Assembly (NCBI GenBank): GCA_963457665.1
Contig: OY735215.1
Location: 44,810,514 to 44,874,513 of the forward strand
Direction of reading: 5' to 3'
Source: Thysanoteuthis rhombus
Lineage: Eukaryota; Mollusca; Cephalopoda; Oegopsida; Thysanoteuthidae
DNA length: 64,000 nt
Within the stretch, counting starts at the first letter, position 1. Each line of letters opens with the position of its first letter. Shown one piece after another: positions 8,363-58,775 of the stretch. Under the pieces are notes generated by a model that worked only from the letters and a program-made list of their open reading frames with translations, searched no databases and was not told the DNA's origin. The position numbers were made by a program, and so were the translations under genes.

Positions 8363-8550
8363 AATGTGATTCAAATACATAAACTCACAGACAATTATAT
8401 GAAAAACGAAGCCTCAAGATAGACGTATGCATAGACATACTTGAATAATCTCTTACAATCAAATATCCCGCAAAATTTGATATTACAACAAGTGAAATAA
8501 CTCAAAGTTTTCCCGACCGACTGATCGCCCAGTCGGTAGGGTATCTACTT

Positions 8551-8552
8551 AC
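8551..8552 (-). other. Splice donor of SLC6 first coding exon
   Basis: On the minus strand the exon runs into GGAG|GTAAGTAG, a near-perfect donor. The intron starts in phase 1 inside the third Gly codon of NGGG, at the end of helix 1. Confidence 0.9.
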
Positions 8553-8799
8553 CTCCTCCATTTTTATAACACAAGTAAGGGAACCGCCAGACATTTCCAA
8601 GTCCAATACAGTAGCCGACGCATGATAAAACAAAGTTGATTTTCCCTGCCCATTGGTCCCTAACATACTCCTCTTTTTGTTCCTCAGTTTTAATTTCCAC
8701 TGTCCGTGGTGCGCCAGCGTCCAGCTGTACCTGAGACCCATTGGTGTACATGGGACTCAGGGATGCTGGCTTCATCTCTAATGTTTCCCCTTTATCCAT
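8553..8799 (-). CDS. SLC6 Na+/Cl- dependent transporter, first coding exon (partial gene)
   Basis: This exon encodes the first 82 residues plus one base of an SLC6 (neurotransmitter:sodium symporter) protein, a plasma-membrane carrier that couples uptake of a small amine or amino acid to Na+ and Cl-. Residues 1-46 are a hydrophilic cytoplasmic tail rich in E and K. Residues 47-50 (RDQW) match the conserved RxxW motif at the membrane face. Transmembrane helix 1 follows, with [16 protein letters not shown] at about 61-76 and then CYKNGGG. The Asp that monoamine carriers place in helix 1 is a glycine here (G66), which points to an amino-acid type carrier such as GABA, glycine, proline or taurine, not a monoamine one. 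C64 stands where Ala is usual. The start is chosen because an in-frame TAG lies upstream with no ATG between, and the context is GAGATGG. The exon ends GGAG|GTAAGT (phase 1). Exon 2 ('AF(L/I)IPY') is not in the remaining 8.5 kb. The exact substrate cannot be told. Confidence 0.93.
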
Positions 8800-8963
8800 C
8801 TCCCCGGTCTGGTGCCGACTGCCGTACCAATCGTCGATTTGCTGTCCACAGCAGGGATTTTTCCTCTTCTTCCTCTTCCTCGACTACTTCTTTTTCTTGT
8901 TCTTTTTTTCGGAAGTCGCGATTTCAACTCTGAGAGCCGTCGAGGCGTCGCTTGCTGTCTCAC
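8778..8963 (-). other. Upstream ORF overlapping the SLC6 start
   Basis: A 61-codon frame starts 164 bases before the SLC6 ATG and ends 21 bases after its first base, in a different frame. It is very basic ([17 protein letters not shown]), as expected from a purine-rich leader, and has no known domain. If the transcript starts upstream of 8,963, scanning ribosomes would meet this ATG first, which would lower transporter translation. The transcription start is not visible, so this is an inference. Confidence 0.35.
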
Positions 8964-13566: not shown

Positions 13567-14150
13567 ACTAAACGGGGCTCCTCTTTCGATCGGCTTTCTT
13601 TTCAAAGAAAGTGTTCATGATTTTGAGCCGGTTTGCAGTTGAAAATTTCACAAGATCTTCACTCCTCTCGTTGTAGAATTTGCATCCGTATTTGCCGACG
13701 CATTTTTCAGTACCTTGTCCTTCTTGGGCGTTGAAGTCTCCCATAATGAAGAAATTTTTTTTGATTTCGTTCAGTAAGGAATTCAAGTCGTCGTAGAAGT
13801 TGTTTATCTCTTCATCGGTTGATTATAAAGTTGGTGCCTAAACTTAAATGATATCAGTTTGGACCTCTTTGAGAGATATACGGTGACACAGGCTATGTGG
13901 CCCGAGATGGTTTTAAATCCAACATCATTGTTCTTGACTTTTTAGAAAGCCAACTTCGCTGTTTTCCTTTTTTCCTTCCATAGTTGTATGAAAAGTGTTT
14001 GCAGTTTAGTTCGATTGGTTCCTCCCCCGGTCTTCTCGTTTCATTATTACCGATAATGTCCCATTTGATGTTCTTTATTTCATTTTCCAAAGTTGTTAGA
14101 TGTATGTCTGTGGAGAGTGGCTTGACGTTGTAGTTTCCTACGTATTGTGT
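13567..14150 (-). pseudogene. LINE endonuclease (APE domain) relic
   Basis: The minus strand reads, across several frames, GNYNVKPLSTDIH, NEIKNIKWDIIGNNETRR (N-terminal APE endonuclease with the ETR motif), and later NFFIMGDFNAQEGQGTEK, then NERSEDLVKF and NTFF. These are the ordered blocks of the AP-endonuclease-like domain of a LINE, which nicks target DNA before reverse transcription. Stops and frameshifts interrupt it and no reverse transcriptase follows, so this copy is broken and lacks its 3' part. It resembles the fuller copy at 21,270-23,243 and is probably the same family (RTE-like by overall look; clade uncertain). Confidence 0.8.
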
Positions 14151-16330: not shown

Positions 16331-16369
16331 AAAAATTGACCAATTTCAAAGAAAAAAATTTCCAGTATT

Positions 16370-16870
16370 CATTTTGCTCTGTTAACACTCTATCTCCAAA
16401 AGTTCTCAATGAATTTCAATGATATTTCTTGAGGCGTAAAGCAGGGGTAGGAAAAAGTAAGTAAATTGTAGAATTGACCAAGGGAATTCGTTTTTGATTG
16501 AAAGATATTTTTCCGTTTATTTTCTTACATTTCTGTATTCGCTTCGGTCTATCAACATGCTCTCTTCAAAAGTTGTCAATGAATTTCAATGAAATTCAGT
16601 GGAAGAATAACCCACATGATGAGGAAGAAGAGATTAAATTTGGGGTGGATCAGGTAATTTGGCTTTGATTGAGAGGTATATTTTCATTTTTCTCTTCTTT
16701 TTCTCTTCACACATTCTGTACTCAATTATGTTTGTTCGCACACTATCTTCAAAAAAATTCCCCATATATTTGAATGAAAGTTTGTGAAAAGGTGGACAGG
16801 TGGCAACAATCTTTTTCTTAGTCTGGATGATTTTTAGATACAATTCAACCTGGTTGTTAAGATTCTATCC
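16370..16870 (-). repeat. ~170-bp-unit composite repeat, three units plus terminal module
   Basis: Three successive units each have 'aaaagttctcaatgaatttc' type text followed by 'tgattgaaagatatttttcc'. After the last unit comes 'ggcaacaatctttttctta', then 'gatgatttttagatacaattc' and 'aacctggttgttaagattct'. That module also ends the larger element at 33,717-35,594, so this is a partial copy of the same family. Confidence 0.75.
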
Positions 16871-47837: not shown

Positions 47838-48380
47838 ATCTATCACGGGAATAGACTTTTAAAAATCAATAAATGATTGTTCTTAGACGATAAAAAAAGT
47901 GCAGACCACTGAAAGGGGGTGGGGTCGTGGTTATTTCTTTTTTTTTCTATCACAAGAATTGATTAAAGAATTTTTTTTTAAATGAATGATGTCAGTTAAC
48001 TGGCGACAATTGATTTAAAACACGTATATATTACGTCAGCTAACTGGTTGACAGACAAAGTGAGTCAGGGAGACGTTAGACACATCTAAAAACTTCTTCA
48101 TGAATTATTTGTGGCTTGTTATCCTTTTCTCTTTTTGTAACATATATAATTATGTGTGTGTATATGTATATATATTTTTTTCTATCACGAGAATTGACTT
48201 TAAAAAAAGGTAAATGACGTTTGTTAATTTGAGACAATTGATATATATATATATATATATATATATGACATAATCTAATTGGGGTCAGACAGAATAAATT
48301 ATAGAGACGCTGGACACATCTAAAAACTCCTTCATCAATTATTTGTAGCTTCTCACCCTTTTCACTTTTTATAACATGGT
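47838..48380 (+). repeat. Tandem duplication with ~235-bp period
   Basis: 'ctatcacaagaattga' at 47,947 and 'ctatcacgagaattga' at 48,181 start two copies. Both run through 'agacaattgat' type text and 'cacatctaaaaacttcttca' to 'ttttctctttttgtaacat'. A third partial start, 'ctatcacgggaatagac', is at about 47,840. (TA)n has expanded inside the second copy (48,240-48,266). Confidence 0.75.
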
Positions 48381-49115: not shown

Positions 49116-50543
49116 TATCTACTGGATATTTTATATACACCAGAAAGTTACTTTATCCGGCATATGGCAGTGTTTCAATATTGAGAATCTACTTATATAT
49201 TTTGTATAATATCAAGTTTTGTTTTTTTGGTCTTCCATATTTAGCTGTCCCATGAAAGCTTGTAAATTTTAGCATCATGAAAAGTCATGTAAATAGATCT
49301 TGCAAAGAATAAGTGTGAACGGAATGAGTTTTTCTGAATATAACATCACGGTGTCTCCCAATAGAAGCTCAAACTGGGAGTATTGATCAGCCTTATAACC
49401 ATGTAGTAAATCGAAACCCCTATCAAAATATTACAAATCGTCCCGGATTTTTTACACGCTCTAATCCTGAACATTTTAAGGGTGCTTTGAATTACTATCT
49501 CCGGTTAAGATGTACCGTGCGGGGGGAGAATGCAAGCATAATAACAAATTTACGCGAAAGTTAAATATAAACAATGAAACTCTGCGAACAGAATCTGATC
49601 CATTGCTGAGATCGTTTATTGGATTTTGAGTCCAACGCTTTAATCAATCGTCCATCACAGCCAGCAAAATTATTTGTTTCTTATCTCAATATGTAGTTAA
49701 TCTTTCCTTTGAAAATGACAATATGAACAAATCCAAGGCCTCACGAAGAAAGCCATCACAGTAAAGGGAAATACCAATTACGCGTCGGAACTTATCCCGA
49801 TAATTTTTCCGTCACTAAAAATTACACGCCACAAATTATAATCGAGGCTGTGAGGGCATTTCAAGTCCAACACCCTAACCACTCATCATCACACTACTGA
49901 CAGTTAATTCGCTGATTTCTTGATCAGTAATATATTTTTCATTTAGTAAAGATTACTCGCTTCAAATATGTATTACTCCTTGGATTTCGAGTCCAATACC
50001 TTAAACACTAACCATTACTGCACAAGGAGGAAACTTATCGTTTTTTTTGTTTTGGTTTTTTTTTTATTGTTTTTTAAATTTTTTTGACCTGACGTACATT
50101 TTACGTTTACGAAGAATTACATGCAGCGAGCTAGATTACAAACTAATGCGGGTAATACCTTTCGGTTTTCAAGTACAACGCCAATCGGCCATCAAAACAC
50201 AAACATTTAACATATTTTTTTCTGATTTTTACCAGCAGTATATTTCTCCTTTATAAAACGTGGGGAATAAGATTTAAACCAAGTTGCCTAGTTGATTTCG
50301 AGTCAAACAAATTGACCGTGTGGCCATCAAGGCGCTACTAATCAAGCTATTGTGTTCCTACATTGACCACCAGAATATCTCCACTATCACTAGAAATTAC
50401 AAGCTGCAAACAGGATCAGAATCTGAGTGCGAGTGGCCCATTGAATTGCAAGCCTAACGCCTTAACGCCTCGGTGATCAAATTTGATTAACCTATCCATC
50501 TTTCACGTGTACCTGCAGTATATGTTCCTTTACTGAAATTTAC

Positions 50544-50623
50544 ACGCAGCGAACAGGTTTCTAACCTCTGCAGGTATTGCCCATTGGATTCAAAGATGAA
50601 TGACTTAACTGCTTGGCCATCAC
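50544..50623 (-). pseudogene. tRNA-Ser-like unit
   Basis: One of the clearer units. 'cttggccatcacag' (A-box side), and 'cacgcagcgaacagg' (acceptor side) frame a B-box-like 'aggtttctaacctc' that has lost the invariant TTCGA. The anticodon arm is damaged ('ggattcaaagatgaatg'). Confidence 0.6.
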
Positions 50624-50989
50624 AGCACCGACAACCAAGCTATACTTTTTTTTTATCTTAACCACCAGTATATTTTTCTTTACGAAAAAAATCGAACTTG
50701 TGCAGACATTGCCCATCGGATTTCAGGAAGTGCCCCTGTAAGTCCAAAGCTTTAACAATTTAGGCATAAAACCACTGACAATTAGCACATTCATTTATTA
50801 TCTTGGTTATCAGTATTTTTTTTTGTTTACTAAAAACTGCCAGCTGCTAACATGATTCAAACATGAGCGGGGTTCGCCCATTGGATTTCAATTCCAATGA
50901 CGTGACAACCCAGCCATCACAGGGTTGACAATTAAACCATACGTATTTCATCTTGATCACCAGTATATTTTCCTTTTTTTTAAAATGTC

Positions 50990-51064
50990 ATGCTACAAAC
51001 AAGATTCGAAACTGTGTATATATATTGGATTTCGAATCCAACGCCTTTACTACTCACGCATCAC
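50990..51064 (-). pseudogene. tRNA-Ser-like unit with CGA anticodon position
   Basis: The anticodon arm is well kept ('ttggattcgaaatccaat' on the minus strand, CGA in the loop), as is part of the T loop ('tttcgaatc'). The variable arm has been overwritten by a short TA run. Confidence 0.62.
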
Positions 51065-51130
51065 AGCTATGCAATTCAAACTCGACGTTTCCTGTCTTGA
51101 GCGTACGTATATATTTCTTCTAAAACGGAC

Positions 51131-51210
51131 ACGCAGCAAACAGGATTTTAATCTGTGCAGGTGTTACCCACTGGATTACAAATCCAACCTCTTAACCGGT
51201 CAGCCATTAC
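51131..51210 (-). pseudogene. tRNA-Ser-like unit
   Basis: About 80 nt, close to the length of a tRNA-Ser. The anticodon loop reads TGT between 'ggatt' and 'aatcc'. The B box is changed ('agattaaaatcctg'). Confidence 0.6.
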
Positions 51211-51275
51211 AGTGTTGGCAGCTAAACCATAAATGTCTTATTTTGGCCATCAGAATTTTTTTAATTGAAAGTATC

Positions 51276-51354
51276 AAGCGACGAACGGGATTCTAACCAG
51301 TGCAGTCTTGACACATTGAATTTTGAGTCAGACACATTAACCACTTGGCTGCCA
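51276..51354 (-). pseudogene. tRNA-Ser-like unit
   Basis: Keeps 'caagtggttaatgtg' (A-box side) and 'ctggttagaatcccg' (T-arm side) on the minus strand. The anticodon position reads CAA. Confidence 0.58.
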
Positions 51355-51559
51355 ATCAGATTTTGGGCAGTTGTTATGTGATTTCAAGTACAAAACATCG
51401 GCTACTCAGACATCACAGAATTGGAATTTAACCCCTGCATGTCTTGACTTGACCATCAGTACATGTTTCCTTTATCTAAAAAATGCCCGCTGCGACCAGG
51501 AGACGAGCTTGGATTTTAAGGGCAATGCTTTAACCACTCGGCCATCGCAACACGCAATT

Positions 51560-57655: not shown

Positions 57656-58775
57656 ACCGTAGAACGACTTTTTATTGAACGACGTTTCAACGAACGGCAT
57701 TTCATCGAAACAACTTTTCATACGAACGACTTTTTCATTACGACGACATTTAATCGAAACAGCTCTTTATCGAAGCGACTTTATCGAAACGTTTGTTGAT
57801 ATTTCGTTTATACTTATTTTTTTTTTTATAACAAAATTATCAAATGATTATTTATCTGCTATATATTGCACATAATTCATAAAACTGGCAGATACAGGTA
57901 CGTGCTTTCTCACAACCGGAAATCAACACCTAATTATGGAAACGGAAGTTGTCTTAGTTTTTGCTAGAAAGAGAAAATCCTAAATATTCATTAAAAAAAG
58001 AAAAACAAATTTTGATTAATCATAACGTAGGATTGGATAGTTATAATGTCAATGTTTATTTTATTTTTACAACTCTTAAAAATATTTCTTGGATTTACCG
58101 ATATATCATTTTGTTTATACTTTTTATGTTCTAGTTCTTGAGAATATACTCAGAGAAAGTTTGTATCAGAATTTTCCAATCTTTTTTTTTTCTTTTTTTT
58201 TTTCAGGTGTTGATTTCCCAGAGAAAATATCACTGGTTTTAAAATGTTTAATTTTAAATGGAAATTTTATATTTGTATTATTAAAATCATTTTTGATTTT
58301 GATTTTATTTCCCGGTAAAAATATCACTGGTTTTGAAATTCAAAATTTCAAATGGAAATCTTATATCTAAATCATTGAAATTCAATTTTTATTAGAATTA
58401 CAAATTTAAAAATCATTTTGATAAATAGTCGCTTCGATGAAAAATAGTTTCGATGAAGTCGTTTCGCTAAAGAAACTCTCGAGGAAATGTTGTTTCGATG
58501 AAGATATAAACGACACTCCATCGAAACGATGAAGTGTCGTTTCGATAAAAAGTCATTTCTATAAAAAAAAAAAAAAAGTTGTTTTGCTGAATTGTTGTTT
58601 CAATAAAAAAAAGTTTTATTGAAAGTTGTTTCGATTAAATTTCAATTCGGTAAAAAGTCATTTTGGTAAATAGTTCTTTCGATGAAATGATTCTTCAATG
58701 AAAAGTCTCCTGTTGAAAAGTCGTTTCGATGAGATGTCGTTCCGCCTTTCGATGAGGAGAAAATTGTTCAGTTAG
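57656..58775. mobile_element. Fold-back element with TTCGATGAA-type tandem ends
   Basis: The left end (57,656-57,800) has repeats such as 'gaacgacgtttcaacgaacg' and 'catcgaaac'. The right end (about 58,417-58,775) has the complement, 'gtcgtttcgatgaa' repeated about every 18-25 bp with drift. The ~620-bp interior holds a direct duplication ('aaatatcactggttttaaaa' at about 58,228 and 'aaatatcactggttttgaaa' at about 58,318). No protein is encoded. Inverted ends made of short tandem repeats are the mark of fold-back type DNA elements. It seems to have landed in a copy of the ~170-bp-unit repeat. Confidence 0.68.

Follow-up and report, generated by a model that had tools for sequence, protein, structure and literature searches.

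A decayed tandem array of tRNA-Ser-like units in the genome of Thysanoteuthis rhombus

How did a row of tRNA-like units come to stand head to tail in the genome of the cephalopod Thysanoteuthis rhombus, and does any part of it still work? The question is raised by a stretch of 64,000 nucleotides (C18:44810514-44874513 within a 2.73-Gb assembly of 514 contigs), hereafter the window, in which the initial annotation had described about 14 degenerate copies of a type II tRNA-Ser with a spacer of about 65 bp on the minus strand, leaving open whether these represent a satellite, a failed tRNA cluster or a source of small RNAs. The analysis described below indicates that the array is very probably the decayed relic of about 15 tandem copies of one tRNA-Ser(TGA/CGA) gene, in which homogenisation has ended.

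Layout and identity of the array

An nhmmer search seeded with one unit recovered, in its fourth and last round, 14 minus-strand units between 49570 and 51548 (E 6.1e-8 to 1.6e-26; Table 1), the best matches in the rest of the 64-kb window having E values of 1.7 or more. A fifteenth, shortened unit (49661-49759) was assigned from alignment and spacing alone. With unit starts set by hand, 11 of the 14 start-to-start distances amount to 128-155 bp, the remaining three being 63, 176 and 99 bp, and the proposed tandem array of about 14 units is hence upheld with one unit more. The consensus unit is composed of a tRNA part of 82 nt and a spacer of 68 nt, spacers across the units being about 60-70 nt long. 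Among the 12 fuller units pairwise identity averages 59%, with means of 62% for the tRNA part and 56% for the spacer.

The locus is silent in routine scans. Tandem Repeats Finder misses the array and reports only a 15-bp A-rich repeat within unit 11, Rfam yields no match over the array at gathering threshold, and ARAGORN makes no tRNA call in the window. The window holds copies of one tRNA gene and its spacer, head to tail on one strand, as a relic, and not the intact tRNA gene units of a working array, as seen from the ARAGORN and Rfam results and from a strict B box being present in none of the 15 units. Default tandem-repeat, tRNA and RNA-family scans overlook relics of this type. Several Rfam matches over or beside the array were dismissed as chance, namely RUF2 on the plus strand (E 0.02; 32.4 bits, with a cut-off of 90) and snoZ152, DdR7 and sR52, all far under their cut-offs.

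Elsewhere in the window, an open frame looks like the N-terminal exon of a sodium:neurotransmitter symporter, with GABA transporter 1 and B(0)AT1 as the nearest solved structures, and a second segment is a probable fragment of a non-LTR retrotransposon endonuclease. Three paired direct repeats are also present (Table 1).

Table 1. Units of the array, further features of the window, and related loci of the assembly (CM R1, serine-specific covariance model)
Feature	Coordinates	Strand	Anticodon place	Support or remark
Unit 1	51419..51551 (tRNA part 51488-51551)	-	TAA	nhmmer 59.2 bits; CM R1 34.2 bits
Unit 2, truncated	51356..51418	-	TGA	nhmmer 28.1 bits; no CM R1 match
Unit 3	51214..51355	-	CAA	nhmmer 63.5 bits; CM R1 27.2 bits
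Unit 4	51068..51213	-	TGT	nhmmer 76.0 bits; CM R1 56.5 bits
Unit 5	50924..51067	-	CGA	nhmmer 67.5 bits; CM R1 48.4 bits
Unit 6	50769..50923	-	TGA	nhmmer 80.3 bits; CM R1 55.5 bits
Unit 7	50627..50768	-	TGA	nhmmer 46.5 bits; CM R1 31.5 bits; in the alignment, 15-nt insertion in anticodon arm and 3'-end deletion in tRNA part
Unit 8	50482..50626	-	TTG	nhmmer 88.0 bits; CM R1 51.8 bits
Unit 9	50333..50481	-	TGC	nhmmer 73.3 bits; CM R1 27.5 bits
Unit 10	50198..50332	-	CGA	nhmmer 47.6 bits; CM R1 only 8.2 bits, E 4.3
Unit 11, A-rich insertion in spacer	50022..50197	-	TGA	nhmmer 58.1 bits; CM R1 28.4 bits
Unit 12	49894..50021	-	CGA	nhmmer 37.8 bits; CM R1 28.9 bits
Unit 13	49760..49893	-	TGA	nhmmer 49.5 bits; no CM R1 match
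Unit 14, heavily deleted	49661..49759	-		spacing and alignment only; missed by nhmmer profile and CM
Unit 15, last, most of spacer gone	49570..49660	-	CAA	nhmmer 57.9 bits; CM R1 41.5 bits
Open frame, symporter-like	8545-8883	-		Pfam SNF, E 3.9e-18
Probable endonuclease fragment	13568-13822	-		Exo_endo_phos_2, E 7e-5, below curated cut-off
Paired direct repeats	58210-58381; 48052-48377; 16360-16596			67-92 bp, 79-82% identity
tRNA-Ser array	C32:13.010 Mb			unit ~148 bp
tRNA-Ser array	C32:28.76 Mb			unit ~207 bp
tRNA-Ser array	C7:7.25-7.28 Mb			unit ~208 bp
tRNA-Ser array	C25:15.92-16.0 Mb			unit ~238 bp
tRNA-Ser array	C45:25.40 Mb			unit ~430 bp
tRNA-Ser array	C18:56.84 Mb			unit ~436 bp
Foreign-anticodon genes	L014: 1238, 2066, 4137, 4758, 6621, 7449, 9520
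Foreign-anticodon genes	L011: 891; L009: 393, 5737; L028: 7855, 9520; L015: 2396, 7143

The identity of the founder was assessed from the majority consensus of the 15 units, which ARAGORN recognises as tRNA-Ser(TGA) and which carries a TTTTT run 5 nt behind its 3' end, that is, a complete ancestral tRNA gene with a Pol III terminator. The 82-nt consensus alone gives one call, and each of three forms of doubled consensus gives two. The live gene closest to the consensus, L010:1761 at C25:15949760, shares 95.1% identity with it, and the per-locus median identity to live genes is 88-93%. A profile of intact genes, constructed from 177 distinct ARAGORN-called 82-nt sequences of the fetched loci of this genome with the window excluded, matches 14 of the 15 units (E 0.009 to 2e-15); the weakest, unit 2, reaches 11.9 bits, near the maximum of 10.9 bits over 20 dinucleotide-shuffled windows. 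Congruent with this, a serine-specific covariance model built from 18 live genes (CM R1) detects 11 of the 15 units at E<1e-5, leaves unit 10 at E=4.3, and misses units 2, 13 and 14. The general Rfam tRNA model, with its cut-off lifted, finds five units at E<=10, with scores of 19.0-27.7 bits led by unit 5. The initial annotation had considered that covariance scores at background level for all units would speak against it: with the general model every score does fall below the cut-off of 29, but the serine model places most units far from background. Aggregated, the nhmmer search, the consensus, the intact-gene profile and the covariance model support the view that a type II tRNA-Ser and its spacer were amplified in tandem and have since decayed.

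The low pairwise identity, and the failure of both Tandem Repeats Finder and Rfam (at gathering threshold) to report the array, are what a chance similarity of scattered short words would give. Most units, however, have profile and covariance scores far above those of shuffled controls and of the rest of the window, and on the nhmmer, intact-gene profile and serine covariance-model scores we rejected this explanation, its probability being next to nil.

The anticodon place reads TGA in five units, CGA in three, CAA in two, and TAA, TGT, TTG and TGC in one each, and is lost in one unit. This is congruent with the proposal that anticodons differ between units; mutation would have scattered them. 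The anticodon arm was also correctly singled out as the best-kept part. It diverges by 16.3%, the tRNA part as a whole by 24.4%, and its value is the lowest among 82 circular 17-nt blocks (permutation P=0.007), although anchoring of the alignment at this arm may add to its better preservation. A better-kept arm is not what plain neutral decay predicts.

Decay of the units

Divergence from the consensus is 25.4% in the tRNA part and 29.9% in the spacer, the tRNA part being slightly less diverged; bootstrapping puts this difference between -0.098 and +0.007, an interval that just takes in zero. The decay of both parts looks unconstrained. Expressed as a Jukes-Cantor distance, the raw tRNA divergence amounts to about 0.31 changes per site accumulated after the units last shared a common state. 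Substitutions are biased from G/C to A/T and are accompanied by indels; the highest per-site change rates are those of C>T (17.7%) and G>A (16.6%), as is expected within a window of 36% G+C. Among the 12 fuller units, adjacent units are 60.2% identical as compared to 59.0% for random pairs (P=0.04), and with so slight an excess among neighbours the units have decayed mostly independently of each other.

We then consider whether an RNA structure is maintained. Of 218 stem cells 74.8% are paired, against 72.8% with partners shuffled among units, a level equalled in 213 of 2000 shuffles, so that covariation in the stems is not significant in this partner-shuffle test. Changed stem cells comprise seven altered on both sides yet pairing, 27 altered on one side, and 55 broken; the seven, like the better-kept arm and the slightly lower divergence of the tRNA part, speak somewhat against a wholly free decay. 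RNA folding of four units gave z-scores of -0.7 to +1.0, and two live genes gave -3.0 (L011:4330) and -0.6 (L010:1761); as the latter is likewise unremarkable, fold energy is weak evidence here. On the lack of significant covariation and the ordinary folding energies of the four units, a maintained RNA structure was rejected.

These observations bear on the possibility of a retained functional array, yielding tRNA-like small RNAs or serving as Pol III/TFIIIC chromatin boundary sites. The better-kept anticodon arm agrees with such a role, as do a strict A-box pattern at the expected place in about four of the 15 units (units 1, 4, 8 and 11) and T-runs persisting behind several units. However, the strict B box is gone throughout, significant covariation is lacking, tRNA and spacer have decayed almost alike and no tRNA is called, rendering retained function highly improbable. 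For the suggested source of small RNAs in particular the sequence offers little positive sign, given the missing B boxes, the non-significant stem covariation and the ordinary folding of the four units. The units look dead. With promoters and structure broken, no unit would be expected to make a serine tRNA today.

Serine tRNA loci elsewhere in the genome

Searching the whole assembly with the array returned at least 179 matches at E<=0.001, mostly in a few tight clusters among the matches listed; there, alignments centre on the tRNA part and their ends reach up to roughly 35 nt into the flanks. We took 20 stretches from the assembly and scanned 17 loci with ARAGORN, obtaining 327 tRNA calls (one of them, L011:9922, cut by the end of its stretch), 313 of which are Ser. 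Besides single genes, the fetched stretches contain tandem arrays of intact-looking tRNA-Ser genes (Table 1). These live arrays (C25, C45, C32, C7 and C18; L009-L012, L014-L017, L025 and L028) share with the window the gene, the head-to-tail layout and a unit of gene plus conserved spacer, and 238 of the 248 units examined carry a T-run no more than 20 nt past the gene. They differ in a pairwise tRNA diversity of 0.6-7%, as compared to about 38% in the window array, and in units of 148-436 bp, with fetched spacers that did not match those of the window as a whole. Conservation of spacers along with the units, which the initial annotation regarded as unusual, is also seen in the intact-looking arrays, and is what tandem duplication of a gene with its spacer yields.

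The spacer was next compared across loci. Run over the array, a profile built on the window spacer picks up 13 spacers at E<1e-5, a positive control that uses the very sequences from which the profile was built. Outside the array, in two flanking stretches and 13 further tRNA loci, its best match has E=4.9; the idea of a satellite spread over the genome thus finds no backing in these loci. No fetched spacer matched that of the window over its whole length. When the consensus spacer was aligned to both flanks of up to three genes per locus in the 17 loci (80 comparisons, 200 shuffles each), one flank was unreached by shuffles (L014:617, 5' flank) and four more had values of 0.025-0.045, none of which we counted as a match. 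A test anchored at the gene edges, on both sides of the genes of the 17 loci, did not repeat the L014 5' result (median P=0.45). In this test the first 15-25 nt 3' of the genes at C32:28.76 Mb (L014) resemble those of the window, with none of 3096 background 40-mers scoring as high, a likeness that is overstated because live genes share a T-run which these 40-mers do not have. The next lowest values were those of the L017 5' flank (P=0.01) and of the L020 and L009 3' flanks (P=0.02). A shared founder gene may lie behind the 3' flank likeness at C32:28.76 Mb. When the whole assembly was searched with the consensus spacer, no candidate came up, but the window array itself was missed as well, so that this search carries no weight. 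L024 (C18:23.1 Mb) has two decayed units spaced by 136 bp with a window-like spacer, which were set aside after an alignment shuffle P of 0.04. Most simply, the different arrays would have been founded by different tRNA-Ser genes, or by a single gene with differing flanks.

The same comparisons address a tRNA-derived SINE, or a satellite originating from one, in which the spacer would be the SINE body and the tandem copies would have arisen from it. SINE-derived satellites reported for scaled reptiles provide a precedent for tandem repeats of such descent (PMC10702118). Against this, the unit holds an entire tRNA with its 3' acceptor half and a T-run rather than a tRNA head joined to a body. 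The genome matches to the array, among those listed, have their centre in the tRNA part, and the profile that picks up 13 array spacers scores nothing better than chance at 13 tRNA loci outside the array. We consider a SINE origin very unlikely.

Some fetched stretches combine called and decayed units, with ARAGORN calls to profile units standing at 8/17 in L013, 10/14 in L025 and 12/17 in L012; these plausibly represent intermediate stages. The window array occupies the far end of this series, none of its 14 profile units being called by ARAGORN. At L017 (C18:56.84 Mb), 6 of 23 profile units are without an ARAGORN call, and six units of this stretch align only from profile position 8 on, a recurrent variant with an altered 5' end.

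To relate gene and spacer change in the live arrays, diversity was measured on 248 units from nine stretches, restricted to units with an ARAGORN call that follow the array period, and with the caveat that units lying close together may have been copied from one another. The gene/spacer diversity ratio is 0.31 in the 430-bp array (L011) and 0.12 in the 436-bp array (L017), as expected of genes under selection, and these two arrays look selected. In seven stretches (L009, L010, L028, L014, L015, L016 and L025; the 148-, 207-208- and 238-bp arrays) it is 0.68-1.14, these seven representing four arrays, with three stretches from one C25 array and two from one C7 array. As the selection of units lowers the tRNA diversity, ratios near 1 are conservative. 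The data suggest that most live tRNA-Ser arrays drift much like satellites, though their genes look intact.

Fourteen of the 327 ARAGORN calls in the 17 loci are tRNA-Ser bodies with a foreign anticodon: TGG (Pro) in six, CAA (Leu) in three, TTA (stop) in three and TCA (labelled SeC) in two. Both strict promoter boxes are kept in 13 of the 14, and in L011:891 the anticodon is the sole difference from the commonest CGA gene. As seryl-tRNA synthetase charges its tRNAs without reading the anticodon, such genes would, if expressed, put serine at the wrong codons.

Origin and significance of the array

The array appears to be a relic of a known kind. Its state fits the fate described for surplus tRNA genes, which starts with duplication in tandem and leads, once concerted evolution is escaped, to pseudogenisation and remoulding of the anticodon (PMC4981973), and tRNA pseudogene number has been found to rise faster than linearly with genome size (PMC2888827); the portions of these two accounts used here describe no row of about 15 decayed units belonging to a single family and standing at regular spacing. 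The giant squid genome paper reports about 17,000 tRNA-derived loci (PMC6962438). Among arrayed tRNA genes, the Arabidopsis SYY cluster is a tandem row including serine tRNAs, silent in most tissues, whose core is reported to have grown by tandem duplication; it is of Ser/Tyr composition and expressed in root cap cells, whereas the window array is of one specificity and broken (PMC12308677). In Entamoeba, tRNA genes form tandem array units as in the window, yet these arrays hold nearly all of its tRNA genes, with up to five genes per unit, and make up more than 10% of the genome (PMC2652664, PMC2888827). Literature searches for tRNA arrays in octopus, squid and cephalopods yielded mainly mitochondrial papers, which does not show such arrays to be undescribed.

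For the window array we propose that a nuclear tRNA-Ser(TGA/CGA) gene and about 65 bp of its flank were amplified head to tail to about 15 copies, probably through unequal crossing over or a similar process. The copies must once have been nearly identical, as the unit consensus is still an almost perfect tRNA-Ser gene. Homogenisation and selection would then have ceased, with the units decaying largely independently. Of the three fates offered by the initial annotation, the failed cluster, a dead tRNA gene cluster, is accordingly the one that fits best. The array would represent a dead end of the process that maintains several large tRNA-Ser arrays elsewhere in the genome, and as long rows of intact-looking relatives are still carried there, it is a gene fossil and not a new genetic system.

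In itself, the window array illustrates clearly the death of a redundant array of tRNA genes, and together with the mixed and the intact-looking arrays it provides a stage series for timing the escape from homogenisation. The genome-wide picture, with its satellite-like arrays and foreign anticodons, is of more interest than the window alone. It is conceivable, though we hold it for rather doubtful, that tRNA-Ser genes repeatedly seed satellite-like drifting arrays, which pass through a stage with foreign anticodons (leucine, proline, stop) and end as fossils like the one in the window. If so, one genome would display every stage of the life cycle of a tRNA array, and near-intact serine tRNAs with foreign anticodons might misread codons.
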